DNA from: Micromonospora peucetia
GTDB lineage: Bacteria > Actinomycetota > Actinomycetes > Mycobacteriales > Micromonosporaceae
NCBI RefSeq assembly: GCF_900091625.1
Contig: NZ_FMIC01000002.1
Coordinates: forward strand, 62,001-126,000
DNA length: 64,000 nt
Direction: 5' to 3'
Shown: positions 16,043-28,461 of the stretch, in pieces
Position numbering within the stretch: position 1 is the first letter of the stretch
Layout of the letters: every line of letters begins with the position of its first letter
Translations under genes and position numbers: made by a program
The notes under the pieces: model-generated
The model's database searches: none
What the model saw: the letters and a program-made list of their open reading frames with translations, nothing else
Told to the model about the DNA's origin: nothing

Positions 16043-16414
16043 TCAGCGGGTCTTCTTCGTCGCCCGTTTGCGGGGTGGCGTCAACAGTTCGGCGATCGCC
16101 GCGATCGCGGACGGCACCAGGCGGTAGTACGCCCAGACACCGCGCTTCTCGCGCTCGAGCAGGCCGGCCTCGGTGAGGATCCGAAGGTGATGACTCACGG
16201 TCGGCTGGGAGAGCCCAAGCGGCGCGGTGAGGTCACTCACGGACGCCTCGCCCTCCGGAGCGGACTGGATCAGACTGAGCAGTCGCAGCCGGGCCGGGTC
16301 GGCGAAGGCCTTCAAAACTCCCGCGAGCCGTTCGGCATCGGCGCGCTTGATCGGCTCGCCAGCAAGCGGCGAGATGGCAGGCATCGCAGTTTCCGCAGTT
16401 CCCACGTCTTGCAT
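16043..16414 (-). CDS. ArsR/SmtB-family regulator lacking the metal-site cysteines
   Basis: A 123-residue winged-helix repressor. The DNA-recognition helix is LSQPTVSHHLRIL and the wing is EREKRGVWAYYRLV. In arsenite-sensing ArsR proteins the helix before it has the motif CVCDL; here it reads SVSDL, and no cysteine occurs anywhere in the protein. It may therefore sense something else, use a different site, or be constitutive. The ATG at 16414 is chosen; Met at 16378 is an alternative. A small palindrome, GTTGC-A-GCAAC, lies at 16416-16426, immediately before the start. It sits downstream of arsC and ACR3 on the same strand, but a 118-bp gap separates it from arsC. Confidence 0.88.
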   Translation of the reverse strand: MQDVGTAETAMPAISPLAGEPIKRADAERLAGVLKAFADPARLRLLSLIQSAPEGEASVSDLTAPLGLSQPTVSHHLRILTEAGLLEREKRGVWAYYRLVPSAIAAIAELLTPPRKRATKKTR

Positions 16415-16532
16415 CGTTGCAGCAACACCACCGGTAGGCCGTGAAACGAGGGCTGGATCACGGTGAGTTCGCCGGTAGGGAGCCTTCTGCACCCGTCCGG
16501 TCGGCTCGGCGTGACGATCTGCTGATGAGGGC

Positions 16533-16940
16533 TCAGGTGATGGGGCGTAGCTCGGCGAGGAGCGTCTCCACCCGGGTACGGATCTCGTCGCGGATCGGCC
16601 GGACGGCTGCGACGCCCTTGCCGGCGGGGTCGTCGAGCTTCCAGTCCTCGTAGCGCTTGCCGGGGAAGACCGGGCAGGCGTCGCCGCAGCCCATGGTGAC
16701 GATGACGTCGGACGACTCGGCGGTGGCGTACTCCAACAGTTTGGGGGTCTGGTCGGTGATGTCGATGCCGACCTCGCGCATGGCTTCGACGGCGGCGGGG
16801 TTGACCGCCTCGGCGGGGGCGGAGCCGGCAGAGCGGACCTCGACGGTGTCGCCGGCGAGGTGGCGCAGCCAGCCGGCGGCCATCTGGGAGCGGCCGGCGT
16901 TGTGGACGCAGACGAACAGGACGCTGGGCTTGTCGCTCAT
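16533..16940 (-). CDS. arsC: Arsenate reductase, low-molecular-weight phosphatase type
   Basis: A 135-residue enzyme that reduces arsenate to arsenite in the cytoplasm. The N-terminal P-loop CVHNAGRS (Cys11-x5-Arg17) is the anion-binding and nucleophile motif. Further cysteines occur in MGCGDACPVFPG, as in thioredoxin- or mycothiol-linked relatives, and the C-terminal part contains YEDWKLDDPAGKG. The ATG at 16940 lies 17 bases after the ACR3 gene stop, and GGGAAA precedes it. It is co-transcribed with the arsenite pump: ArsC makes the arsenite that ACR3 expels. Confidence 0.95.
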   Translation of the reverse strand: MSDKPSVLFVCVHNAGRSQMAAGWLRHLAGDTVEVRSAGSAPAEAVNPAAVEAMREVGIDITDQTPKLLEYATAESSDVIVTMGCGDACPVFPGKRYEDWKLDDPAGKGVAAVRPIRDEIRTRVETLLAELRPIT

Positions 16941-16957
16941 GGTGGTTTCCCTACCGG

Positions 16958-18061
16958 TCAGGCGTGGGCTGCATCGGATGAGGTGGAGGTGAAGAAGCGG
17001 CGGCGCGCCCAGAGGGAGACGTAGACCAGTCCGACGAGGACGGGTACCTCGATCAGTGGGCCGACGACTCCGGCGAGGGCTTGGCCGGAGGTGACGCCGA
17101 AGGTGCCGATGGCGACGGCGATGGCGAGTTCGAAGTTGTTGCCGGCGGCGGTGAAGGCCAGGGTGGTGGTGCGTTCGTAGCCGAGGCCGATGGCGCGGCC
17201 GAGCGCGTAGGAGCCGGCCCACATGAGGGCGAAGTACACCAGCAGGGGCAGGGCGATGCGGACCACGTCGAGGGGGTGGCTGGTGATGGCGTCGCCCTGC
17301 AGGGCGAACAGGATCACGATGGTGAACAGCAATCCGTAGAGGGCGGTCGGGCCGATCCTGGGCAGGAAGCGGGCCTCGTACCAGTCGCGGCCCTTGGCGC
17401 GTTCGCCGAGGCGGCGGGTGAGGTAGCCGGCGAGCAGTGGGATGCCGAGGAAGATGAGCACGTTGCGGGCGATGTCCCAGGCCGAGATGGTCAAGTCGGC
17501 GCCGGAGAGCCCCAGCCAGTCGGGAAGTACGGAGAGGTAGAACCAGCCGAGCAGGCCGAAGGCGAGGACCTGGAAGACGGAGTTGAGCGCGACCAGGACG
17601 GCTGCGGCTTCGCGGTCGCCGCAGGCGAGGTCGTTCCAGATGATGACCATGGCGATGCAGCGGGCCAGGCCGACGATGATCAGGCCGGTGCGGTACTCGG
17701 GCTGGTCGGCCAGGAAGATCCAGGCCAGGGCGAACATCACGGCGGGGCCGACGAGCCAGTTGATGACCAGTGAGGAGATCAGCAGTCGGCGGTCGCCGGT
17801 GACGGTGTCGAGCCGGTCATAGCGGACCTTCGCCAGCACCGGGTACATCATGATCAGCAGGCCGATCGCGATCGGTAGGGAGATCCCAGCCACCTTCACC
17901 GAGTCCAGCGCGCTGTTCAGGCCGGGAATGAGCCGGCCGAGGAGCAGTCCGGCGATCATGGCCAGCCCGATCCAGATCGGCAGGAACTGGTCGAGTCGGG
18001 ACAGGCGGCCGACGACGGCACTTTCGCCCGGGTCGGTCTGGGAGGTGGTGCTGGTACTCAC
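16958..18061 (-). CDS. acr3: ACR3-family arsenite efflux permease
   Basis: A 367-residue membrane protein with about ten helices that exports arsenite using the proton motive force. Hallmarks are the segment LARCIAMVIIWNDLACGDR, whose first Cys is required in ACR3 proteins, and FTAAGNNFELAIAVAIGTFG in a later helix. The N-terminal MSTSTTSQTDPGESAVVGRL is a short cytoplasmic leader. The GTG at 18061 has GGAAG six bases upstream. It follows the ArsR gene starting at 18563 on the same strand with a 124-bp gap and is followed by arsC, so the regulator-pump-reductase order is classical. Confidence 0.95.
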   Translation of the reverse strand: MSTSTTSQTDPGESAVVGRLSRLDQFLPIWIGLAMIAGLLLGRLIPGLNSALDSVKVAGISLPIAIGLLIMMYPVLAKVRYDRLDTVTGDRRLLISSLVINWLVGPAVMFALAWIFLADQPEYRTGLIIVGLARCIAMVIIWNDLACGDREAAAVLVALNSVFQVLAFGLLGWFYLSVLPDWLGLSGADLTISAWDIARNVLIFLGIPLLAGYLTRRLGERAKGRDWYEARFLPRIGPTALYGLLFTIVILFALQGDAITSHPLDVVRIALPLLVYFALMWAGSYALGRAIGLGYERTTTLAFTAAGNNFELAIAVAIGTFGVTSGQALAGVVGPLIEVPVLVGLVYVSLWARRRFFTSTSSDAAHA

Positions 18062-18185
18062 AAGCGCTTCCGTCCATTTCAGCGGTCGTTCTCGTCGAAC
18101 ACCCTGCGCGGCATCGGCCGCGACGCCACCCACGTCGTCACCGGCTTGGCCGAGGGCCTGCACGGCGCGGGGCGTCAGCCACGGC

Positions 18186-18563
18186 TTACGCGGCGGCGGC
18201 CGGTTCGACGGTGAGCAGTGCGGCGAGTTGGCGCAGGATGGCGGGCCGGGCCCGGTAGTACACCCAGGTGCCCCGCCGCTCGGCATCGACGAGGCCTGCC
18301 TCGCGCAGCGTCTTGAGGTGATGCGAGATGGTCGGCCCGGTCAGGTCGAATGCGGGGGTCAGGTCACAGACGCACGCCTCCCCGCCCTCGGCGGAAGCGA
18401 TCATCGACATCAACTGCAACCGCACCGGGTCACCGAGTGCCTTGAACGCTGGCGCGAGAACGGCGGCGGTCTCGGCCGGCACCCGGCGCTGCGCCAGCGG
18501 CGGGCAGCACGGCGTGTCTGCGGTGAGGTCGATGACGGGAAGCGACGCCGCTTGCTTTGACAT
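18186..18563 (-). CDS. arsR: Arsenite-responsive ArsR repressor
   Basis: A 125-residue winged-helix repressor with the arsenite site motif EACVCDLTPAFDL before the recognition helix TGPTISHHLKTL, and an additional N-terminal TPCCPPL. Both are typical of actinobacterial ArsR proteins, in which three thiolates bind As(III) and release DNA. It starts at 18563 and reads towards the pump and reductase genes. On the other side the divergent genes for two small cysteine-containing proteins and an M28 peptidase begin, so one ArsR site could control both directions. Confidence 0.92.
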   Translation of the reverse strand: MSKQAASLPVIDLTADTPCCPPLAQRRVPAETAAVLAPAFKALGDPVRLQLMSMIASAEGGEACVCDLTPAFDLTGPTISHHLKTLREAGLVDAERRGTWVYYRARPAILRQLAALLTVEPAAAA

Positions 18564-18821: not shown

Positions 18822-19082
18822 ATGAGCGAGAACACCCAGACCACCCCCGCGTTGACGGGCGGGTTCGCCGGAGATCCGGCCGCCGCCCTGGCCGTGACGG
18901 GCTCCGGTTCCTGCTGCGGGAGCCCGGCTGCGGCAGTCGGCTCGATCCTTCCGCCCGCTGGCCAGGCGGCAGCCGCGGGACCGTGCTGCGGCACTCAGCA
19001 GGCCTCCGAAGCGGCGGGCTCCTGCTGCGGCACCGAGGCGAGGGCCGAGGCCGTGAACGCGGGTCAGGGGTGCTGCGGATGA
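18822..19082 (+). CDS. Small peptide with four Cys-Cys-Gly motifs
   Basis: An 86-residue protein whose only cysteines are four vicinal pairs, each followed by glycine: Cys31-32, 55-56, 68-69 and 84-85, the last forming the very C-terminus. The rest is Ala/Gly/Ser/Thr/Pro-rich with no charged core, so it is probably unstructured. AAGGACG precedes the ATG. Its stop overlaps the start of the M28 peptidase gene by four bases (ATGA), so the two are translationally coupled. Vicinal thiols bind trivalent arsenic well, and the flavoprotein gene at 21244 has the same motif in its tail. Possible roles: arsenite-buffering peptide, chaperone, or precursor of an arsenic-binding product. These are inferences; no homologue of known function is recognised. 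Confidence 0.75.
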   Translation: MSENTQTTPALTGGFAGDPAAALAVTGSGSCCGSPAAAVGSILPPAGQAAAAGPCCGTQQASEAAGSCCGTEARAEAVNAGQGCCG

Positions 19083-20335
19083 CCTCGGCATCGGGATCAT
19101 CCGCCCACCTGGAGGCGATCCTCGCGAGAGTGTCACCCGGGCGGATGCTCGCCACCGTCACCACTCTCTCCTCGGATGACTTCACCGGCCGTCGGGTCGG
19201 CACGGCAGGCGGGGCCGCCGCCCGCGCCTGGCTCACCGAGTGCCTCGCCGGCCTCGGCGCGACGGTCGCGACGGACGATTTCCCGGTCCGTGCCGTGCCC
19301 GACGTGTACGCGGCGCCCACGGTCATGTGGGGCGAGGGCGAGACCTCGACAGTGTTGGCCTTCGGCCGCGAGGTCGCGGTCCACTCGGCCTCGGCCGACA
19401 CCGTCGAGGCCAGGCGCGGCCCGTTGGGCGTGGCCGGCAGCAGTGACCCGACCGGCCGGTGGCTGGTGGCGCCCACGGGCATGAATCTGTTCGACGCCTA
19501 CCGTGACGCCCAGGGCGCCGCGGGCCTGCTGGTGAGCCGGGCTGTCGACGCAGACGGCTGGCAGTACACGGCCCTCGCCGGCCCGAACCCGGGACCCCTG
19601 CCCATCCTGACCCTCGACGCGGGCACCCACCGCGCTGCTCTCGCCGCCGCTGCCACCGATGCGGGGTGGTTGAGCGGAAACACCCCGCTGCGCCGTCGCG
19701 ACGTCACCGGCGCCAACATTCATGCCGCCTTACAGGCGGCGTCGCCGGGCGGGGTCGAGGTGTTGCTGACCGCCCACTACGACGGTGTCGGCGATCATCC
19801 GGGCCTGCGCCAGCCCGGCGCGGCGGACAACGCCAGCGGCGTCGCGGTGATCCTGGAAGCCGCCCGGATCCTGTCCACCGCGCGGCCCCCGGGGGTGGGG
19901 CTGTCCGTCGCGCTGCTCGACGCCGAGGAGGTCGGCGCGCTGGGCTCCGCCCACCACAGCCAGCGGCTACGTACCACCGACGCCCGTCCGCTGATCATCA
20001 ACGTCGACGGCGCCGGCCTCCTCGACCAGGCCGCCGCGGTCGAGGCTGGCGGGCCGGCCCACGCGCTACTCGCCCTGCTCGACCAGGCCGGCCGGCACAC
20101 CGGCGTTCCCCTCGTCGCCGGACCGGTCGCCTCCGACAACCGCCGCTACGCAGCCGCCGGCCTCGCGGCAGTCGGCATCGGCGCCGGGATGGGCGGCTAC
20201 CACAGCCCCGCCGACACCCCGGACCGCGTCGACCCGCACACCCTGGCGGCCGTCGCCCGACTGGTTGTCGCGGCCGTGTCTCTCGCCGCTTCCGCACCCG
20301 CTACACTTCCATCGCCAATCGGCGATAAACGATAG
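19079..20335 (+). CDS. M28-family zinc metallopeptidase
   Basis: A 418-residue enzyme of the M28 (aminopeptidase Y/S) type. The two-zinc site residues are visible in order: His in LLTAHYDGVG, the bridging Asp in GAADNASGVA, Glu-Glu in LLDAEEVGALG, Asp in IINVDGAG and a final His in GGYHSPADTPD. A PA-like insert (about 100-200) precedes the catalytic half. No signal peptide is seen, so it should act in the cytoplasm. It starts at an ATG overlapping the stop of the CCG peptide gene by four bases. A peptidase is not a standard ars component. It may trim the CCG peptide, recycle arsenic-loaded thiol peptides, or release amino acids for thiol synthesis; none of these is shown. Confidence 0.9.
   Translation: MTSASGSSAHLEAILARVSPGRMLATVTTLSSDDFTGRRVGTAGGAAARAWLTECLAGLGATVATDDFPVRAVPDVYAAPTVMWGEGETSTVLAFGREVAVHSASADTVEARRGPLGVAGSSDPTGRWLVAPTGMNLFDAYRDAQGAAGLLVSRAVDADGWQYTALAGPNPGPLPILTLDAGTHRAALAAAATDAGWLSGNTPLRRRDVTGANIHAALQAASPGGVEVLLTAHYDGVGDHPGLRQPGAADNASGVAVILEAARILSTARPPGVGLSVALLDAEEVGALGSAHHSQRLRTTDARPLIINVDGAGLLDQAAAVEAGGPAHALLALLDQAGRHTGVPLVAGPVASDNRRYAAAGLAAVGIGAGMGGYHSPADTPDRVDPHTLAAVARLVVAAVSLAASAPATLPSPIGDKR
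20311..20326. promoter_or_regulatory. Candidate ArsR operator at the end of the peptidase gene
   Basis: ATCGCC-aatc-GGCGAT is a perfect 12-of-12 dyad with a 4-bp centre, lying inside the last codons of the M28 gene and 22 bases before the GTG of the next ArsR gene. Its position and symmetry fit autoregulation of the ArsR-ArsN pair from an internal promoter. Confidence 0.45.
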
Positions 20336-20347
20336 AAGGGGGCGGGT

Positions 20348-20674
20348 GTGGACGAGCTGCTCGACCGGGCGACCGCTCAGCGGTATGCGTCGTGGTTCCG
20401 GGCCCTCGCGGACCCGACTCGGGTGCAGATCGTCGAGTACCTCGCCCGCCATGCCAGGCCGATGAGTGTCGGGGAGATCGTCGCCGCCGTCGGCCTGGCC
20501 CAGTCCACCGTCTCCCAGCACCTGAAGATCCTCACCGAGGTGCGGTTCGTCCTCGTCGACCCGGTCGGCACGGCCCGGCACTACCGCATCAACGACGCCT
20601 GCGTCGGCTGCTTCCCCTCCGCCGCCGACGTCGTCATGGGCCGACCCGCTCCCCACCCGAACGGAGCCTGCTGA
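20348..20674 (+). CDS. ArsR-family repressor with C-terminal cysteine site
   Basis: A 108-residue winged-helix protein, the third ArsR in the island. The recognition helix is LAQSTVSQHLKIL. Instead of a CVCDL motif it has cysteines at the end: ACVGCFPSAAD and the terminal NGAC, the arrangement of actinobacterial ArsR proteins that bind As(III) through C-terminal thiols. It starts at a GTG just after the operator-like dyad, and its TGA overlaps the ATG of the acetyltransferase gene. It probably controls arsN, the flavoprotein and the MFS pump. Confidence 0.9.
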   Translation: MDELLDRATAQRYASWFRALADPTRVQIVEYLARHARPMSVGEIVAAVGLAQSTVSQHLKILTEVRFVLVDPVGTARHYRINDACVGCFPSAADVVMGRPAPHPNGAC

Positions 20675-21171
20675 TGGCCGACATCACCGTCCGTCCCATG
20701 GCGGCCGACGACGCCGCGCGGGTCCTCGCCATTTACCAGGCGGGCCTCGATGGCGGGCACGCCAGCTTCGAGACCAGCGCACCCACCTGGGCGGCGTTCG
20801 ACGCCGCAAAGCTGCCCGCGCACCGCTTCGTGGCCGTCGACGGCGACGACCTCGTCCTCGGCTGGATCGCCGTCTCGCCCACTTCGACGCGCGCCGTCTA
20901 CGCCGGCGTGGTGGAGCACTCCGTCTACATCGATCCCGCCGCCCACGGCCGAGGCGCCGGCCGGCTACTCCTCGACGCGGTGATCGCCTCCACCGAAGCC
21001 GCCGGCATCTGGACCCTCCAGTCCGGCGTCTTCCCCGAGAACACCGCCAGCCTGACCCTGCACCAGCGCGCCGGCTTCCGGATCATCGGCACCCGCGAAC
21101 GCGTCGGGTGCCACGACGGCCGATGGCGCGACGTCGTCCTCCTCGAACGACGCAGCCCCGCCATCACCTGA
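20674..21171 (+). CDS. arsN: ArsN-type GNAT acetyltransferase
   Basis: A 165-residue N-acetyltransferase of the phosphinothricin/arsinothricin class. The start ITVRPMAADDAARV is typical. The acetyl-CoA pyrophosphate loop is HGRGAGRLLLDAVI, and VFPENTASLTLHQRAGFRIIGTRERVG is the characteristic C-terminal part, here covering residues of the substrate pocket. In ars operons this family (ArsN1) detoxifies arsinothricin, an arsenic-containing glutamate analogue antibiotic. Its gene overlaps the ArsR stop codon by one base. It could instead acetylate phosphinothricin or methionine sulfoximine; context favours the arsenical. Confidence 0.88.
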   Translation: MADITVRPMAADDAARVLAIYQAGLDGGHASFETSAPTWAAFDAAKLPAHRFVAVDGDDLVLGWIAVSPTSTRAVYAGVVEHSVYIDPAAHGRGAGRLLLDAVIASTEAAGIWTLQSGVFPENTASLTLHQRAGFRIIGTRERVGCHDGRWRDVVLLERRSPAIT

Positions 21172-21243
21172 CCAACCCCAGCCCAGGCAGAGCGCCCGTC
21201 CACCTACCTGATCTGACAGTTTTCAATACAAAGGAGTTGTCTG

Positions 21244-22662
21244 ATGAGCACCCTGACCGAACTGCCCGTCGTGGTGATCGGCGCCGGCCCGGTCGGTCTG
21301 GCCGCCGCCGCGCACCTGTACGAACGCGGCATCACTTTCACCGTCCTCGAAGCCGGCGACACCCCCGGCGCCGCGGTCCGGCAGTGGGGGCACGTGCGGG
21401 TCTTCTCCCCGTGGCGATACAACATCGACCCCGCCGCCCGCCGGCTCCTGGACGAGGCCGGCTGGGTCGCCCCCGACCTGGAAGCCCTACCCGCCGGCGC
21501 GGAACTCGTCACCGACTACCTTCAGCCCCTCGCGGAACTGCCGCAGCTCAAGCCCCACCTGCGCTACGGCACCCGCGTCGAGGCGATCAGCCGGCTCGGC
21601 CTGGACCGCCTGCGAACCGCCGGGCGCGAGACCACCCCGTTCCTCATCCGCCTCGCCGACGGCGAGGAGATCCTGGCCCGGGCGGTCATCGACGCCTCCG
21701 GCACCTGGGGCACCCCGAACGTCCTCGGCGCCTCCGGTCTCCCCGCCCGCGGTGAGCGGGACGTAGCCAGGCACCTGGAGCACGCGCTGCCGGACGTCCT
21801 CGGCGCCGACCGGGACCGGTTCGCCGGCCGGCACACCCTCGTCGTCGGCGCCGGCCACTCCGCTGCCAACACACTGCTCTCCCTCGCCGAACTGGCCGCC
21901 GACCAGCCAGGCACCGAGGTGACCTGGGCGATCCGGACCTCCTCGCCGGCACGCACCTACGGCGGCGGCGACGCCGACGCCCTACCAGCGCGCGGCGCAC
22001 TCGGCTCGCGGCTGCGCGACCACGTCGACGCCGGCCGGATCCGGCTGCTCACCGGCTTCTCCGTGCACGCCCTCACCCCGACCGACGGCCGGGTCACCGT
22101 GGTCGTCCGGCACGCCGACGGCAGCGAGGAGCCCATCACCGTGGACCGCATCGTCGCGGCCACCGGCTTCCGCCCCGACCACACCATCGCCGCCGAACTG
22201 CGCCTGGACCTCGACCCGATCATGGGCGCCACGCGCGCCCTCGCCCCACTGATCGACCCCAACGAGCACTCCTGCGGCACCGTCCCCCCGCACGGCGTCG
22301 ACGAGCTCACCCACCCCGAGGTCGGCTACTACGCCGTCGGCATGAAGAGCTACGGCCGCGCCCCCACCTTCCTCATGGCCACCGGCTACGAGCAGGTCCG
22401 CTCCGTCGTCGCCGCCCTCGCCGGCGACTGGCAGGCAGCCCGCGACGTCCAGCTCGACCTGCCCGAAACCGGCGTGTGCAACAGCAACCCGGACGACTCG
22501 GCGACCAGCGACAGCTGCTGCGGGCCGGCGCCGGCCGCCGAGCCGGCGGGACGAGGGCTGGCCACCGGCATCTCCGGTGGGCTGCTGGCCGCGCCGTTAC
22601 AGCTGGTCACTCTCAACGCCGTACCCGCTGGCGCTCAGGCTGGCGGCTGCTGCGGCAGCTGA
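21244..22662 (+). CDS. ArsO-like flavoprotein monooxygenase with a Cys-Cys-Gly tail
   Basis: A 472-residue NAD(P)/FAD two-dinucleotide-domain protein. The FAD motif is VVVIGAGPVGLAAAAHL at residue 8, the NADPH motif VVGAGHSAANTLLSL is near residue 200, and a conserved ATGFRPDHTI lies near 310. It resembles ArsO-type flavin monooxygenases reported from actinomycete ars operons. After the catalytic fold ends (about residue 410) comes an unusual 60-residue tail with SDSCCGPAP and a C-terminal GGCCGS, matching the motifs of the peptide at 18822. AAGGAG precedes the ATG. Its TGA overlaps the MFS start. The tail may deliver or receive trivalent arsenic for oxidation or transport; this is inferred. 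Confidence 0.88.
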   Translation: MSTLTELPVVVIGAGPVGLAAAAHLYERGITFTVLEAGDTPGAAVRQWGHVRVFSPWRYNIDPAARRLLDEAGWVAPDLEALPAGAELVTDYLQPLAELPQLKPHLRYGTRVEAISRLGLDRLRTAGRETTPFLIRLADGEEILARAVIDASGTWGTPNVLGASGLPARGERDVARHLEHALPDVLGADRDRFAGRHTLVVGAGHSAANTLLSLAELAADQPGTEVTWAIRTSSPARTYGGGDADALPARGALGSRLRDHVDAGRIRLLTGFSVHALTPTDGRVTVVVRHADGSEEPITVDRIVAATGFRPDHTIAAELRLDLDPIMGATRALAPLIDPNEHSCGTVPPHGVDELTHPEVGYYAVGMKSYGRAPTFLMATGYEQVRSVVAALAGDWQAARDVQLDLPETGVCNSNPDDSATSDSCCGPAPAAEPAGRGLATGISGGLLAAPLQLVTLNAVPAGAQAGGCCGS

Positions 22663-23921
22663 TGCCCACCACCACGACAGTGCCCGCCGACCCCACGGTC
22701 GGCGGGCACCACGCCCACGGCTGGCGGATCGTCGCCGCCCTCGCCGTCACCTCGACCATCGGCTACGGCACGCTCTACTACGCCTACGCGGTCCTGCTGA
22801 ACCCGATGGCCGCCACCCTCGGCGTCTCCACCACCGCCGTCACCGGCGCGCTCACCGCCTCCGTCCTCGCTGGCGCACTCTCGGCCATCCCCGTTGGCCG
22901 GTGGCTCGACCACCACGGCGGACGTGCCCTCATGACCACTGGTTCGCTCGCCGCCACCGCCCTGCTCGTGGCCTGGTCACAGGTCCACACCATCGGCCAG
23001 CTCTACGCCGTCATGATCGGCATCGGGATCACCGGCGCGATGGTCCTCTACGAACCCGCCTTCGCCGTCATCGTCTCCTGGTTCACCCCTGACCGACGCA
23101 CCACCGCCCTGCTGGCGGTCACGGTCGTGGCCGGGTTCGCCAGCACCATCTTCATGCCCCTGACCGGCCTGCTCGACGCATATCTCGGCTGGCGCGACAC
23201 GCTGCTCGTCCTCGCCGCCATCCACGGACTGGTCACCGTGCCCCTACACGCGCTCACCATCCGCCGCCCCCAGCCGACAACGACGACTGCACCCGCCCAC
23301 ACCACACGACCCGAGCACACCCACCGGCGCGCGGTCGTCACGGCCGCGATGCGCGACGCCCGGTTCTGGATCCTCGCCGGCAGCCTCGTCGCCCACGGCG
23401 CGGCCACCAGCACCATGACCGTGCACCTCATCGGCTACCTCGTCAGCCGTGGGCACCCCGCCACCTTCGCCGCCACCGCCGCCGGCCTGCTCGGCGTCCT
23501 GTCCGTCACCGGCAGGCTCGTCCTCACCGCCGCCCGCCGACACCTGCAGGTCACCACCATCGTCGCCGCCGTCTTCGCCACCCAGGCCGCCGCCGTCCTC
23601 GCGATGCCCCTGCTCGCCGACACCCGCACCGGCGCGATCGCGACCATCGTCGGCTTCGGACTCGGCTTCGGCATCACCAGCCTCGCCACTCCCGCCCTGC
23701 TCGCCGACCGGTACAGCACCGCCGCCTACGCCACCATCGCCGGGCGACTCGCCGCCCCCGTCACCATCGCCAAAGCCGCCGCACCCCTCGCCGCCGCCAC
23801 GCTCCTGCACACCGCCGCGGGGTACGTGCCGCTGCTCACCGCCGTCGCTGGATGTTGCGCCCTCGCCGCCACCTGCATGCTCACCCGCGCCACCACCACA
23901 CCACCCAACCCCGCCGGCTGA
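22662..23921 (+). CDS. MFS transporter of the arsenic island
   Basis: A 419-residue, roughly twelve-helix major facilitator. The first helix contains STIGYGTLYYAYAVLLNPM, resembling the oxalate/formate and monocarboxylate-like MFS group. Loop 2-3 has GRWLDHHGGRALM, and helix 4-5 has YEPAFAVIVSWF. The central loop is hydrophilic and Thr/His-rich. The ATG overlaps the stop of the flavoprotein gene, so it is coupled to it. By context it may export an oxidised or acetylated arsenical made by the two preceding enzymes, in the manner of ArsJ or ArsP-type pumps, though it belongs to neither by sequence as far as I can judge. Confidence 0.9.
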   Translation: MPTTTTVPADPTVGGHHAHGWRIVAALAVTSTIGYGTLYYAYAVLLNPMAATLGVSTTAVTGALTASVLAGALSAIPVGRWLDHHGGRALMTTGSLAATALLVAWSQVHTIGQLYAVMIGIGITGAMVLYEPAFAVIVSWFTPDRRTTALLAVTVVAGFASTIFMPLTGLLDAYLGWRDTLLVLAAIHGLVTVPLHALTIRRPQPTTTTAPAHTTRPEHTHRRAVVTAAMRDARFWILAGSLVAHGAATSTMTVHLIGYLVSRGHPATFAATAAGLLGVLSVTGRLVLTAARRHLQVTTIVAAVFATQAAAVLAMPLLADTRTGAIATIVGFGLGFGITSLATPALLADRYSTAAYATIAGRLAAPVTIAKAAAPLAAATLLHTAAGYVPLLTAVAGCCALAATCMLTRATTTPPNPAG

Positions 23922-24039: not shown

Positions 24040-25593
24040 TTAGTGGGGAGCGCTGCCGAAGGCGCTGGAGAGGTACGCCCGGGAGTCGGCGATGGCGCCC
24101 TCGATGATCCGGGCAGCCTCGCGGGCCTCCTCGGGATGGTGCCCGGCCTGCACCTGAAGCCGGAACCGGGACGAGCCGGTCGGGGTCACCGGGAACTCGA
24201 CCATGAATGCCAACACCCCTCGGTCGAAGAGCAGGCGGTTCGCCGTCCGCGCCAGCTTCTCGTTGCCGATCAGTAGCGGCACGATCGGTGACGGCTCACC
24301 CATGCAGGTCAGGCCCCGGCCGGTCAGTTCGTCGCGCAGGGCGTGGATCGCGGTGAAGAGCCGGGCCCGCAGCACGTCCCCCTCGGCCGACCGGATGATC
24401 CTGGTGGCCTCCCGTACCACCGCGGTCTGCACCGGTGACAGCGCGTTGGAGAAGAAGTGCGAGCCGCCGAACATCTTGATGTACTGCTTCAACGCTGGCG
24501 AGTTGGAAGCCACGAAGCCACCGTTGGAGCAGAACGTCTTGGAAAAGGCGCCCATCACGATGTCGACGCTGCCGAGCAGGTCCTGCATCCCCAGCACGCC
24601 CGTGCCGCCGGGCCCCATCGAGCCCAGGTCGTGCGCCACATCGACCAGCAGCGTGGCGTCGTGTTCCCGGCAGACGCGTTGCAGGGTGACGAGGTCCGGC
24701 CAGTCCGCGTCCACCGAGAAGAGCCCGTCGGTGACCACCAGAATGCCGTTGCGGGTGTCCGTGGCCCGGATCTCGGTCAGGTGCCGGCGTACCGCCTCGA
24801 CGTTGAGGTGCTCGTAGCGGACCACGTTCCGGGTGGCCGCCCGTGCCCCCTGCTGGAGGCAGGAGTGGGCCAGCCGGTCGATCACGATATGGTCGGACTG
24901 CCGGACCAGACCGACGACCGCGCCGAAGCCGGCCGCCCATCCGGTCGGAAAGAGCGTCACGTGGTCGAGCCCGACCAGGTCGCCGAGGGCCGCCTCCAGA
25001 TCGTCGGAGATGCGGGTGTTGCCGAGCACCATCGGCGAGCCGGCGCTGTGCGGCCCGTAGTCGTGCATCGCCTTGGCCGCCGCCTCCCGGATTGCCGGGT
25101 GGGTGTTGAACGACAGGTAGTCCTGGGAGTTGAAGTTGATCCCTCGGGCCCGCCGGCCCAGGTCGTTGGTGATCTGGGCGACGCTGTCCGGTGCCGCCTC
25201 CAGCACCCGGGAGTACTGCCACGTCTCCGTGCGGCGACGGGCCTGCACCCAGCCGTAGAAGTCCTCGGTGCGGGTCAGCAGGTTGCAGCCGGCGGGTCGG
25301 TAGAAGTCGTACGCGTTCTTGTCCAGGGCGTACTCCTCGTCGGGGTCGACGGGGTTGCGCAGGTGGGCCGGCTCCCACATCTCGGTGAGGTCGGCGACCA
25401 CCTGGGCCAGCTCGTCGTCGGCACCTTCGAGCGACGCGAGGTCGTCCCATGGAATGTGAGTGGCCCAGTTGCGGGTCATCTCGGAGACCTCGGTCGCGGT
25501 ACGCGCCATGGTCTCGAAGTCCCGGCAGTTTGCCGCCTTGAGGATGATCCCGATCAGTTCGCCGTCTTCACGCTGGTCGAGCTCGGTGGTCAC
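24040..25593 (-). CDS. Alpha-oxoamine synthase (PLP enzyme) with N-terminal extension
   Basis: A 517-residue fold-type I PLP enzyme of the AONS/ALAS/KBL family, which joins an acyl thioester to an amino acid with loss of CO2. The core begins near residue 155 (INFNSQDYLSFNTHP). The Schiff-base lysine is in VMGAFSKTFCSNGG, the cofactor Asp is in LLVDVAHDLGSMG, and FGGSHFFSNALSPVQ follows. The first 150 residues are extra compared with the roughly 390-400-residue family norm and contain no obvious carrier-protein serine. The GTG at 25593 has GGGAG upstream; an ATG at 25617 overlaps the preceding stop codon and is an alternative. It pairs with the FAD enzyme 24 bases upstream, suggesting a small natural-product pathway. 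Confidence 0.88.
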   Translation of the reverse strand: MTTELDQREDGELIGIILKAANCRDFETMARTATEVSEMTRNWATHIPWDDLASLEGADDELAQVVADLTEMWEPAHLRNPVDPDEEYALDKNAYDFYRPAGCNLLTRTEDFYGWVQARRRTETWQYSRVLEAAPDSVAQITNDLGRRARGINFNSQDYLSFNTHPAIREAAAKAMHDYGPHSAGSPMVLGNTRISDDLEAALGDLVGLDHVTLFPTGWAAGFGAVVGLVRQSDHIVIDRLAHSCLQQGARAATRNVVRYEHLNVEAVRRHLTEIRATDTRNGILVVTDGLFSVDADWPDLVTLQRVCREHDATLLVDVAHDLGSMGPGGTGVLGMQDLLGSVDIVMGAFSKTFCSNGGFVASNSPALKQYIKMFGGSHFFSNALSPVQTAVVREATRIIRSAEGDVLRARLFTAIHALRDELTGRGLTCMGEPSPIVPLLIGNEKLARTANRLLFDRGVLAFMVEFPVTPTGSSRFRLQVQAGHHPEEAREAARIIEGAIADSRAYLSSAFGSAPH

Positions 25594-25616
25594 GGTGTCG
25601 TCTCCCTGGTGGATCA

Positions 25617-26939
25617 TCAGGCGAAGAGGTTCTGCTGGTAGCTGCGGGAGGTCTCCGCGAAGTCCTCGAAGACCGCGTGGTCGGCGGAGGACTCCTTCGC
25701 GGCGTCGTTGAGCAGGAAGAGGTTGGAGGCCTGGAAGAACTCCGACACGGGCGCGACGTCGGCGTGTGTGGCGATGAACCGGTCGGTCTCCTGCTGGTTG
25801 CCCCGCAACGCGACGAACAGTTGCAGCTCGTCGTGCCGATACGGGCGCATCTCGGCAAGGGTGCAGACGTAGTCGTGGTAGGCGGCAGCGTTCTGGCTTC
25901 GGCGGCGGTCCCCGTAGGCGGTCATCGCCTCGTCGATCGACGCGTCACCGCGGAGCCACCGGTCGAGTGCGGCGCTGACCAGCTCGGCGTCACGGAAGGC
26001 ATGGGTAATGCCGATCGCGGTGCACTGGTCCTTGGCCGACTCGGCGTCACCGACGAGCACCCACCCGGGCCCGTGCAGTGGCCGGAGGAAAGCTGACTGG
26101 TCCAGGGTGCCGTAGATGCGTTCCTCCCTGGTCCCCTTGGTCCGCACCACGTCGCCCAGCTCCGGACTGACGAAGTCCAACGCCTTCTGGTAGTTGCCCG
26201 GCACGTCACCGCGAAACTCCCGCGACCACTCACTCGGCCCCCAGACCAGGACCATGTTCTGGTTGAAGTTGGTCGGCGCCACCGCGCAGGCCAGCCGGCC
26301 GCGCCGGTGCAGTTGTGCCGGACCGAGGTCGAAGCCGGACCAGTAGCTCCAGTAGGCGAACGTGCAGCGGGGCCGCTCGTCGTACTTCGGCAGCGCGAGG
26401 GTGCGGGCGACGAACGAATTCCGGCCGTCGGCACCAACCACGATCCGGGCCCGCTCTTCGACCAGCTGTCCGTCGACCGCACGCCCCCGGATACCGATGA
26501 CCTGCCCGTTCTCGACGATCAGCTCACGAACGGTGAAGTTGGTGCGCACCTCGGCACCGGCCTTGGCGGCCGCGCCGACCAGGATCTCGTCGAGCACCCG
26601 GCGCCGCACGGACGCATAGCTCTGCACCACGCCCGAGTCGTCGCCGTGCAGGTCCCGGAAGTACTCGTGCAGTAGCTCGGTCGGCACCGAGCCGGTCAGC
26701 GAGATACCGTCGTTGACCACCTCGACCGTGGTGTGCGCCGGAGTGACCGCCAGGACCTCATCCAGCAGTCCCCACCGGTTCAGGTAGGACATCCCGTGCG
26801 GCCAGAGGAAGTGCGTCGAGATGACGTCGCTGGGGAACGAGGAGCGGTCCACCACCAGCACCCGGTGTCCACGCCGGGCGAGCAACAGGGCGGTGGACGC
26901 ACCCGAACAGCGGGCGCCGATGACGATCGCGTCGTACAA
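25617..26939 (-). CDS. FAD-dependent monooxygenase/reductase of the halogenase-like group
   Basis: A 440-residue flavoprotein with the FAD motif YDAIVIGARCSGASTALLLA at the N-terminus, the RRRVLDEILV arginine segment, and the second FAD-binding motif VLVGDAESAKDQCTAIGITH near residue 300. No tryptophan-halogenase WxWxIP motif is seen, so it is more likely a hydroxylase or oxidase of the p-hydroxybenzoate hydroxylase or geranylgeranyl reductase type. The TTG at 26939 is chosen because GAAGGA lies nine bases before it and the conserved FAD motif begins directly. It is followed almost directly by the oxoamine synthase gene. The product could be oxidation of the aminoketone or its precursor. Confidence 0.85.
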   Translation of the reverse strand: MYDAIVIGARCSGASTALLLARRGHRVLVVDRSSFPSDVISTHFLWPHGMSYLNRWGLLDEVLAVTPAHTTVEVVNDGISLTGSVPTELLHEYFRDLHGDDSGVVQSYASVRRRVLDEILVGAAAKAGAEVRTNFTVRELIVENGQVIGIRGRAVDGQLVEERARIVVGADGRNSFVARTLALPKYDERPRCTFAYWSYWSGFDLGPAQLHRRGRLACAVAPTNFNQNMVLVWGPSEWSREFRGDVPGNYQKALDFVSPELGDVVRTKGTREERIYGTLDQSAFLRPLHGPGWVLVGDAESAKDQCTAIGITHAFRDAELVSAALDRWLRGDASIDEAMTAYGDRRRSQNAAAYHDYVCTLAEMRPYRHDELQLFVALRGNQQETDRFIATHADVAPVSEFFQASNLFLLNDAAKESSADHAVFEDFAETSRSYQQNLFA

Positions 26940-27361
26940 CTGAATCGATCCTTCGTTGATGTGGCGGTGGCGGTGGCGGCGCAGGCAGCGGCGGCGGGAA
27001 GTCCGCCCAAGAGCGGCCCCGGGGTCCGCGGATCGCCGCAGGTCACCCGGGTTGCGTTCGGCGTCGGCCACCGTTGCCGGTGGCTGCCTCCGCCGCACGC
27101 ACCGGTCGAGTCGGCAGGCCCGGCGGAGAGCGTAGCCTACGTCCACAATGGATTGAAACCGCTCGGTGGCGCCCCAAGCAGCCGCTCTGAGCGGCTCCCG
27201 GAGTGACGGTCCTTCTCACCACTCAGCAGCTGGGCATGTTGCCGCCCGCTGGTGGATGTTCGCCGCGGATGCTGCCGCCGGGCCGTCGGGTGACCGGGGC
27301 AAGGCCGGCGTAGGCGGGCGCCCCAACAACTGCCTCCAGCCTGCGAGGAGACCACTGAACT
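26940..27361. other. Region without recognisable gene
   Basis: A simple GGTGGC-type repeat lies near 26960-26985. A stretch of high GC with no ribosome site leads to the transposase remnant. The in-frame - strand continuation upstream of the FAD enzyme (to 27146) is Arg/Gln-rich and not protein-like. Nothing else can be supported. Confidence 0.4.
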
Positions 27362-27574
27362 TCACGTTTCGAGCGCGAGGCAACCGGTACGCCATCCGCC
27401 CGCCGCACCAAGCATCCGCTCGTTCAACTGCGACAACAGCCGCCACGCGGTCGGGTCGGAGGCGACCGGCCCGAACAGGGCGCACTGGTCACGCAGCACC
27501 GCCAGGTCGGCGATCGCCTCACCACCGTCGGCGAGCATCACCGCCAGATCCACGGCGATGCGATCAGAAGGCAC
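27362..27574 (-). pseudogene. IS1380-family transposase fragment
   Basis: A 70-residue frame reads DRIAVDLAVMLADGGEAI, then LAVLRDQCALFGPVASDPTAWRLL, closely matching the N-terminal third of actinobacterial IS1380-type transposases. The catalytic DDE region is absent and similarity ends at the stop. This is a remnant of an insertion next to the oxoamine synthase locus; no terminal inverted repeats are recognisable. Confidence 0.75.
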
Positions 27575-27624
27575 TTCTTTGCTATCTGACCGCCCCTTGG
27601 ACAGCCCTCAACGAAGGGCCGAGG

Positions 27625-28380
27625 CTAGTGCCGCAGCGCGCGGAAGGTCCAGTTGTCGCTACTGGGGCCGGGTGCGGCGTCGCCGTAGTCGGCGGTCACG
27701 GTGACATCGGTGAAGCCGGCATCGACCAGCAGCTGTCTGAACTCCGCGATACTCCAGAGCTGCAGCCGGAACAGCTGTAGTTCGCTGCCGACCAGGGCGC
27801 CGTCGTGCCACTTGTCATACCGCAGCCATTCGGTCCTCTGGTTGGTCGCCCGGTCGTACTCGACTCGCAGCGTCTGGAGCGTCCAGACGTAGTCATCCCT
27901 GCGCCAGTAGCGCATCGGCGCGGCGTCCGTGGCCATGTCGGGAGCCGGTACGTCGATCAGCAAGCAGCCGCCAGGCTCAAGGTTCTGATGAAAATTCGCC
28001 AGTGCGCGGGCGGTGGCCTCCCTTCCGTCCAGGAGCACGATGGAGCCCGCCGGAATGATCACAGCCGAATATGCTCCGGGGCGGAGGAAGTCGGCCATGT
28101 CGGCGTGATGCAGGACCGGGGCAAGATCCCGGCTCGCGCACTCGGCACGGCACAGAGCGAGCATGTCAGCGGAGGTATCACACCCTTCGACCCGTAGACC
28201 AGACTCCAGCAGCGGAACCAGCACCCGGCCGGTGCCGACCGCGGGCTCCAACACGGATCCCTCGATGCCGCCGAGCTGGCGTCGGTAGTACTCGACGTCG
28301 CCGAACGAGTGCCCGATCGGTTTGTCGAGGTTGTAGACCTCGGTGGACAGCGGGCCGTAGTTCCACCCCAACGCGTGCAT
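27625..28380 (-). CDS. Class I SAM-dependent methyltransferase
   Basis: A 251-residue methyltransferase. The SAM motif is VLEPAVGTGRVLVPLLE near residue 43, followed by VEGCDTSADMLALC, and AGSIVLLDG plus LEPGGCLLIDVPAP (post I and motif III regions). The C-terminal half is beta-rich, as in small-molecule methyltransferases. The ATG at 28380 is preferred: an upstream in-frame ATG at 28452 would have to translate through a perfect 17-bp hairpin. A Shine-Dalgarno-like TCAGGAG abuts the start with no gap, so initiation may be weak or controlled by that hairpin. It lies upstream of the transposase fragment, the FAD enzyme and the oxoamine synthase on the same strand, so it may belong to the same pathway. 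Confidence 0.85.
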   Translation of the reverse strand: MHALGWNYGPLSTEVYNLDKPIGHSFGDVEYYRRQLGGIEGSVLEPAVGTGRVLVPLLESGLRVEGCDTSADMLALCRAECASRDLAPVLHHADMADFLRPGAYSAVIIPAGSIVLLDGREATARALANFHQNLEPGGCLLIDVPAPDMATDAAPMRYWRRDDYVWTLQTLRVEYDRATNQRTEWLRYDKWHDGALVGSELQLFRLQLWSIAEFRQLLVDAGFTDVTVTADYGDAAPGPSSDNWTFRALRH

Positions 28381-28398
28381 CTCCTGACTGATCGTGAC

Positions 28399-28437
28399 CG
28401 GAGTGCCGCCGCCCGCCGTACGGGCGGCGGCACTCCG
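28399..28437. repeat. Perfect 17-bp inverted repeat before the methyltransferase
   Basis: CGGAGTGCCGCCGCCCG and its exact complement flank a 5-base loop (CCGTA). The hairpin ends 18 bases before the methyltransferase ATG, in its likely leader. It could be a terminator, an attenuator or part of a degraded insertion element; there is no T tract on either side. Confidence 0.6.
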
Positions 28438-28461
28438 ACCGGCCGGTCGCATCCTAATTGC

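Follow-up and report, generated by a model that had tools for sequence, protein, structure and literature searches.

ArsD, in the passages of PMC12608789 that describe it, has three vicinal cysteine pairs, and phytochelatins are presented in the relevant part of PMC9917255 as cysteine-rich peptides for thiol-loving metals and metalloids. The section of PMC6514093 on ArsI attributes to this enzyme the demethylation of methylarsenite and the dearylation of aromatic arsenicals. The subject here is an arsenic island of Micromonospora peucetia, analysed within a window of 64,000 nucleotides (the whole stretch of DNA examined, positions 62001-126000 of contig NZ_FMIC01000002.1 in a genome of 7.4 Mb), which encodes a peptide with Cys-Cys-Gly (CCG) motifs and, overlapping it, an M28 metallopeptidase. 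All parts of the system except the peptide belong to known families, and the pair is without counterpart in the families and papers searched; the literature search, with most subscription papers outside its reach, found no such pairing. The pair is read here as an accessory module of arsenic resistance. That it amounts to a kind of system of its own is possible, with the balance of judgement against it.

The peptide shares with ArsD the character of a small arsenic-operon protein with vicinal cysteine pairs. Unlike ArsD, it has no ArsD domain (PF06953 matched neither the window peptide nor 18 members of its family) and no solved relative, and its constant partner is the M28 enzyme. ArsD gave no match in the window's genome and ArsA none among the ten island proteins scanned; PF02374 matches elsewhere in the genome are not diagnostic of ArsA, 14 of 14 controls matching as well. 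Phytochelatins and bacterial metallothioneins resemble the peptide in being rich in cysteine and directed at thiol-loving metals and metalloids. Their patterns are gamma-Glu-Cys or Cys-X-Cys, whereas the CCG peptide combines ribosomal synthesis, a peptidase partner and a Cys-Cys (CC) pattern. The C-As lyase ArsI/CadI also carries CC(G) motifs, there in C-terminal tails: in the lyase they belong to an enzyme, whereas the island peptide is a separate protein that has a GGF part in addition and comes with a peptidase of its own. M28 aminopeptidases of the BSAP/YwaD and AM-1 types differ from the island enzyme, which has no visible signal sequence, lies in ars islands and is tied to one peptide. 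ArsO, finally, is like the island flavoprotein in being an ars-island flavoprotein, with a weak match to NF040505; the island protein departs from it in a score far under the cut-off and in the presence of a CC tail.

By its sequence record, the CCG peptide is a real conserved gene family. The eight cysteines of the 86-residue window peptide all lie inside four CCG motifs, at residues 31, 55, 68 and 84, and its stop codon shares ATGA with the start codon of M28; an initial annotation of this DNA had pointed out both the confinement of the cysteines and the four-base overlap, and the sequence confirms them. A single-sequence search returned at least 80 homologues, those named coming from Micromonospora, Dactylosporangium, Actinoplanes and Plantactinospora, and a profile search at least 533. 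The four CC pairs are invariant across 36 aligned members. Among the matches listed, exactly four CC pairs are found in 162 of 166 peptides, cysteines outside the pairs are absent from 163, and the N-terminal part, of the form GGFxGDPxxAL, contains GGF in 159. The ratio of nonsynonymous to synonymous substitution rates (dN/dS) is 0.14-0.48, below 1 in all eight comparisons. Together, the many homologues and these ratios rule out chance or a frame artefact as the origin of the peptide. Neither the window peptide nor its profile matched a family in Pfam, NCBIfam or PDB. Four of 18 members gave weak galaxin-repeat matches (best E 0.00056), which are attributed to CC composition. Weak peptide matches at L090 and L109-L113 (L and G numbers denote loci and genomes; E above 1e-4) were discarded, and a search for CC-rich frames in L109-L113 and in the wider loci L116-L119, which cover four of those places, found no such peptide.

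The pairing of peptide and M28 was examined in three overlapping sets of loci, many genomes being common to more than one. Set a comes from 300 genomes of the family searched for M28, 60 of them positive (the G174 locus was left out of the loci examined); the peptide lies directly upstream of M28 in 29 of the 29 loci returned, the window's own excluded. Set b has 53 rows, mostly wider loci with two places counted twice: the peptide is present in 51 and the four-base overlap in 48. The two rows with no peptide are L100, which lies at the end of a contig, and L069, where M28 lacks D250, E283 and E284 by alignment. Set c, with one genome per species and M28 as the sole query, covers the best 80 of 89 matching places. 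Here the peptide is directly upstream in 79, the remaining locus (L187) being truncated by a contig end, and the identical overlap recurs in 74 when ATG or GTG is strictly required at the overlap; the overlap counts vary with the start codons permitted for L036, L225, L232 and L233. Searching by tblastn with the peptide overlooked genuine neighbours at L036, L070 and L071, which were recovered through CC-rich frames. Leaving contig ends aside, just one full-length M28 lacks a peptide, that of L069, and it has lost catalytic residues. At L043, a broken island, an M28 fragment covering only about residues 299-387 was found with no peptide seen.

The setting of the pair is that of arsenic resistance, as judged by searching the relatives' neighbourhoods with the window's own genes only. 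In set c, at least one ars marker (ArsR-type included) is nearby at 76 of 80 loci, Acr3, ArsC or the ArsO-like flavoprotein (ArsOL) at 71, and Acr3 or ArsC at 60. Co-conservation of peptide and M28 near ars genes, on which the initial annotation had staked its proposal beforehand, came out strongly in its favour. The link between the two is tighter than the remainder of the island: of the 74 loci with sufficient flanking sequence, 30 have ArsR3 after M28 and 38 have ArsOL within 2.5 kb downstream, counting homologues of window genes above score limits. Such reshuffling of neighbours makes it unlikely that the linkage comes merely from inheritance of the island as a whole. Under even sampling of the phylum (396 genomes, E 1e-20), the window's own M28 was the sole match. 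The scan of one genome per species finds the enzyme in Micromonospora, Plantactinospora, Asanoa, Dactylosporangium, Actinoplanes, Virgisporangium, Nonomuraea, Streptosporangium, Herbidospora, Amycolatopsis, Actinophytocola, Kribbella, Antribacter and Streptomyces, which rules out an oddity of Micromonospora. In Antribacter and two Streptomyces (L231, L232, L233) the pair is present with no Acr3, ArsC or ArsOL recognised in the locus, and its use there may differ.

The window M28 matches PF04389 with E 8.1e-29 (101.2 bits, cut-off 21.3) and keeps H233, D250, E283, E284, D310 and H375, corresponding to the metal ligands H, D, E, D and H and the catalytic Glu. The full two-zinc site ascribed to it at the outset therefore holds for the window protein but not across its relatives: the last His is Gln at position 375 in 42 of 79 aligned sequences (L188-L231 except L193 and L206), with the remainder of the metal site intact. 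The closest solved folds include the Flavourzyme leucine aminopeptidase A proenzyme and PaAP, and by analogy with the closest structures the enzyme may contain a PA-type insert domain. No signal sequence was seen by eye on either M28 or the peptide. An M28 dN/dS of 1.20 for L158 was left unused, since an in-frame stop has probably distorted the alignment there.

A peptide match is present in 37 of 160 genomes of the genus: M28 is also found in 28 (some frames broken), remnants in two (G239 and G1381), and none in seven (G168, G221, G1370, G203, G1378, G265 and G1348), where a whole-genome check returned only distant M28-like matches of at most 48.9 bits. The islands L084, L099, L146 and L150 show deletions or remnants of the pair, which suggests that M28 has been lost repeatedly within the genus. 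Beside M28, peptides keep GGF in 76 of 79 cases, plus one DGF; the motif is gone from six of the seven peptides in M28-less genomes, G221 keeping DGFAGDP with one residue missing after it. In G203, G1378, G265 and G1348, a shortened peptide, without GGF and without the first CCG, shares one open frame with the flavoprotein. When GGF is set against the presence of M28 in a Fisher test (77/79 versus 1/7, DGF counted as kept), p is 4e-7; this value is not relied on, as the lineages are not independent. That GGF is lost where M28 is missing speaks for an action of M28 on the N-terminal part of the peptide, short of proving it. Retention of the CCG part fits a use of its own.

CC stretches also occur on arsenic enzymes. 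The extra tail with two CCG motifs noticed at first on the island flavoprotein is present: it covers roughly residues 409-472 and contains Cys412 as well as CC pairs at 425 and 469; the protein as a whole scores 59.8 bits against NF040505 (ArsO), far below the curated cut-off of 425. In 63 relatives within score and start limits (L202 counted after an apparent frameshift), no tail lacks a CC, and 34 tails have more than one. The structural model has a mean predicted local distance difference test (pLDDT) score of 72, with the tail below 50 throughout. The tail is probably disordered, and the model is silent on docking because it leaves this segment without structure. A conserved LPETG-VC stretch just before the CC tail resembles a sortase motif; no signal sequence is seen by eye on the flavoprotein, and the likeness is probably a coincidence. 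In genomes of the order, a pattern recognised 27 ArsI tails in 34 loci, all of which carry a CC and 20 of which carry more than one. Two genomes of another family encode an ArsI tail with three CC motifs, whose spacing words are like those of the C-terminal part of the peptide. The solved ArsI constructs that matched end before the tail. The window's genome itself encodes an ArsI with a CC-bearing tail, elsewhere than in the island. The presence of such CC(G) stretches on ArsO-like and ArsI proteins supports both an arsenic role for the peptide and its link to the flavoprotein.

The reading preferred here, tentatively and at somewhat less than an even chance, is that of a ribosomally made thiol carrier, loaded with arsenic, that docks on the CC-tailed flavoprotein and has a dedicated M28 at its N-terminal part. 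The process would involve: binding of trivalent arsenic to the CCG pairs of a flexible, ribosomally made peptide, the load being As(III) or, with greater probability, organoarsenicals with a preference for dithiols, for example methylarsenite; docking of the carrier on the ArsO-like flavoprotein, whose CC tail would be the receiving arm for the load; and exit of the product through the ArsK-like MFS pump. The host cells use mycothiol. The coupled, seemingly cytosolic M28 could recognise the GGFxGDPxxAL part and trim or remove it, and coupling would set carrier, load and turnover together. The original idea of a carrier, or of a precursor trimmed by the peptidase, feeding the tailed enzyme and then the MFS pump is supported in part, by co-conservation, by the CC(G) fusions and by the loss of GGF without M28, and is not shown by them. 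A wider relay, common among actinobacteria and so far overlooked, is conceivable but less likely than not: gene-encoded CCG carriers would collect trivalent (organo)arsenicals, a dedicated M28 would read the GGF end to mature or recycle them, and CC-tailed ArsO-like and ArsI enzymes would take the load through a CC arm of similar kind. Such a relay would be the protein counterpart of phytochelatin, complete with a protease of its own. If the carrier reading is true, many actinobacterial arsenic islands hold an overlooked arsenic carrier with its own peptidase, and the CC(G) tails of ArsI and ArsO-like proteins share a meaning as arsenic-docking arms. So close a pairing (79 of 80 loci) makes the role of the peptidase in arsenic resistance directly testable with two purified proteins.

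Several observations weigh against a dedicated processing enzyme serving an arsenic carrier. Ordinary aminopeptidase chemistry is not assured, because the last metal ligand is Gln in so many relatives, and 9 of 80 M28 matches have an in-frame stop within the aligned segment. M28 is not essential to CCG function, because the peptide persists without it. The peptide of G1370 has lost GGF and kept the following GDLAAAL. The seven genomes without M28 stand for only about four independent events, as four of them share a single fusion type, and no probability is rested on them for this reason. Acr3, ArsC and ArsOL all go unrecognised at 9 of 80 M28 loci, and no ars marker whatever appears at 4 of 80 under looser thresholds, some of these loci being near contig ends. 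Arsenic binding, cleavage, hand-off and export are steps that we infer.

The best-surviving alternative, itself unlikely, is a passive sink: a store of trivalent arsenicals resembling metallothionein or phytochelatin, with M28 recycling it, or arsenic-damaged peptides, and no hand-off to the flavoprotein. A short, cysteine-dense sequence with no fold family found would suit such a store, as would its retention in seven genomes without M28. Against it stand the four genomes in which peptide and flavoprotein are fused and the CC(G) tails of ArsO-like and ArsI proteins, which speak for delivery to enzymes; a sink alone also leaves the conserved GGF motif unexplained.

That motif, gone in six of the seven peptides without M28, would find a place in an arsenic-controlled switch, which is judged improbable. 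Here, the peptide would be a separate inhibitory pro-segment of M28, and arsenic on the CCG pairs would release or activate the enzyme, whose real substrate would be something else, for example a toxic arsenic-containing peptide. Co-translation would set a fixed ratio of the two, the sole full-length M28 without a peptide away from a contig end (L069) lacks D250, E283 and E284, and a proenzyme (Flavourzyme leucine aminopeptidase A) and PaAP, which is restrained by a pro-segment, are among the closest folds. Yet the peptide outlives M28, which is not expected of a pure inhibitor.

A short precursor encoded next to a peptidase and an MFS exporter also recalls a ribosomally synthesised and post-translationally modified peptide (RiPP), from which M28 would remove a leader before export of a modified, cysteine-rich, arsenic-binding metallophore. 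This is very improbable: no RiPP-type modifying enzyme is found among the island genes of the window (others could be missed in relatives, given the genes used to search them), neither protein has a signal sequence by eye, and CC stretches occur as enzyme tails too. Supply of zinc by the peptide to M28, with no arsenic handling, would account for strict pairing with a zinc enzyme but is hardly credible given the ars setting, the CC tails on arsenic enzymes and the survival of the peptide without M28.

Table 1. Features of the island, in window coordinates.
Feature	Position	Strand	Remarks
ArsR-family regulator 1	16043..16492	-	family search
ArsC-like, LMWP-type arsenate reductase	16533..16943	-	PF01451 above cut-off; best NCBIfam 105.9 bits, cut-off 215
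Acr3 arsenite efflux open reading frame (ORF)	16958..18286	-	true start inside; TIGR00832 446.5 bits, above cut-off 282.8
ArsR-family regulator 2, divergent	18186..18563	-	N-terminal CC pair (DTPCCPPL)
Small ORF, 49 aa	18649..18798	+	FCDSC motif; between ArsR2 and peptide
CCG peptide, 86 aa	18822..19082	+	N-terminal GGFxGDPxxAL, then four CCG motifs
M28 metallopeptidase, 418 aa	19079..20335	+	PF04389; ATGA overlap with peptide; no signal sequence by eye
Palindrome ATCG-N8-CGAT	20311..20326	+	inside M28 3' end (last codons), just upstream of ArsR3
ArsR-family regulator 3	20348..20674	+	NF033788 79.7 bits, cut-off 55
GNAT acetyltransferase, ArsN1-like	20674..21171	+	NF040503 128.8 bits, below cut-off 170
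ArsO-like flavoprotein	21244..22662	+	NF040505 59.8 bits; tail residues about 409-472
MFS transporter, ArsK-like	22662..23921	+	NF033733 192.3 bits, below cut-off 400

Among the island proteins, curated NCBIfam cut-offs are reached only by Acr3 and by the general ArsR model, and the names ArsC, ArsN1, ArsO and ArsK (Table 1) are likenesses in sequence. The palindrome ATCG-N8-CGAT lies just upstream of ArsR3 in 23 of the 23 relatives listed and is probably an ArsR operator. The peptide-M28 pair and the genes that follow could therefore be transcribed as two units, controlled by two ArsR proteins.

Conservation of the 49-residue ORF ahead of the peptide extends through Micromonospora to several related genera, and its dN/dS of 0.21-0.68 in eight comparisons indicates that it evolves under constraint; searches of Pfam and NCBIfam gave no match. 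In one database protein, P0079, a similar ORF runs on into a CCG peptide. Downstream of the island, the minus strand at 24040-28452 encodes an aminotransferase I/II pyridoxal phosphate (PLP) enzyme, a flavin adenine dinucleotide (FAD)-dependent oxidoreductase and a methyltransferase, which are perhaps part of a secondary-metabolite cluster.

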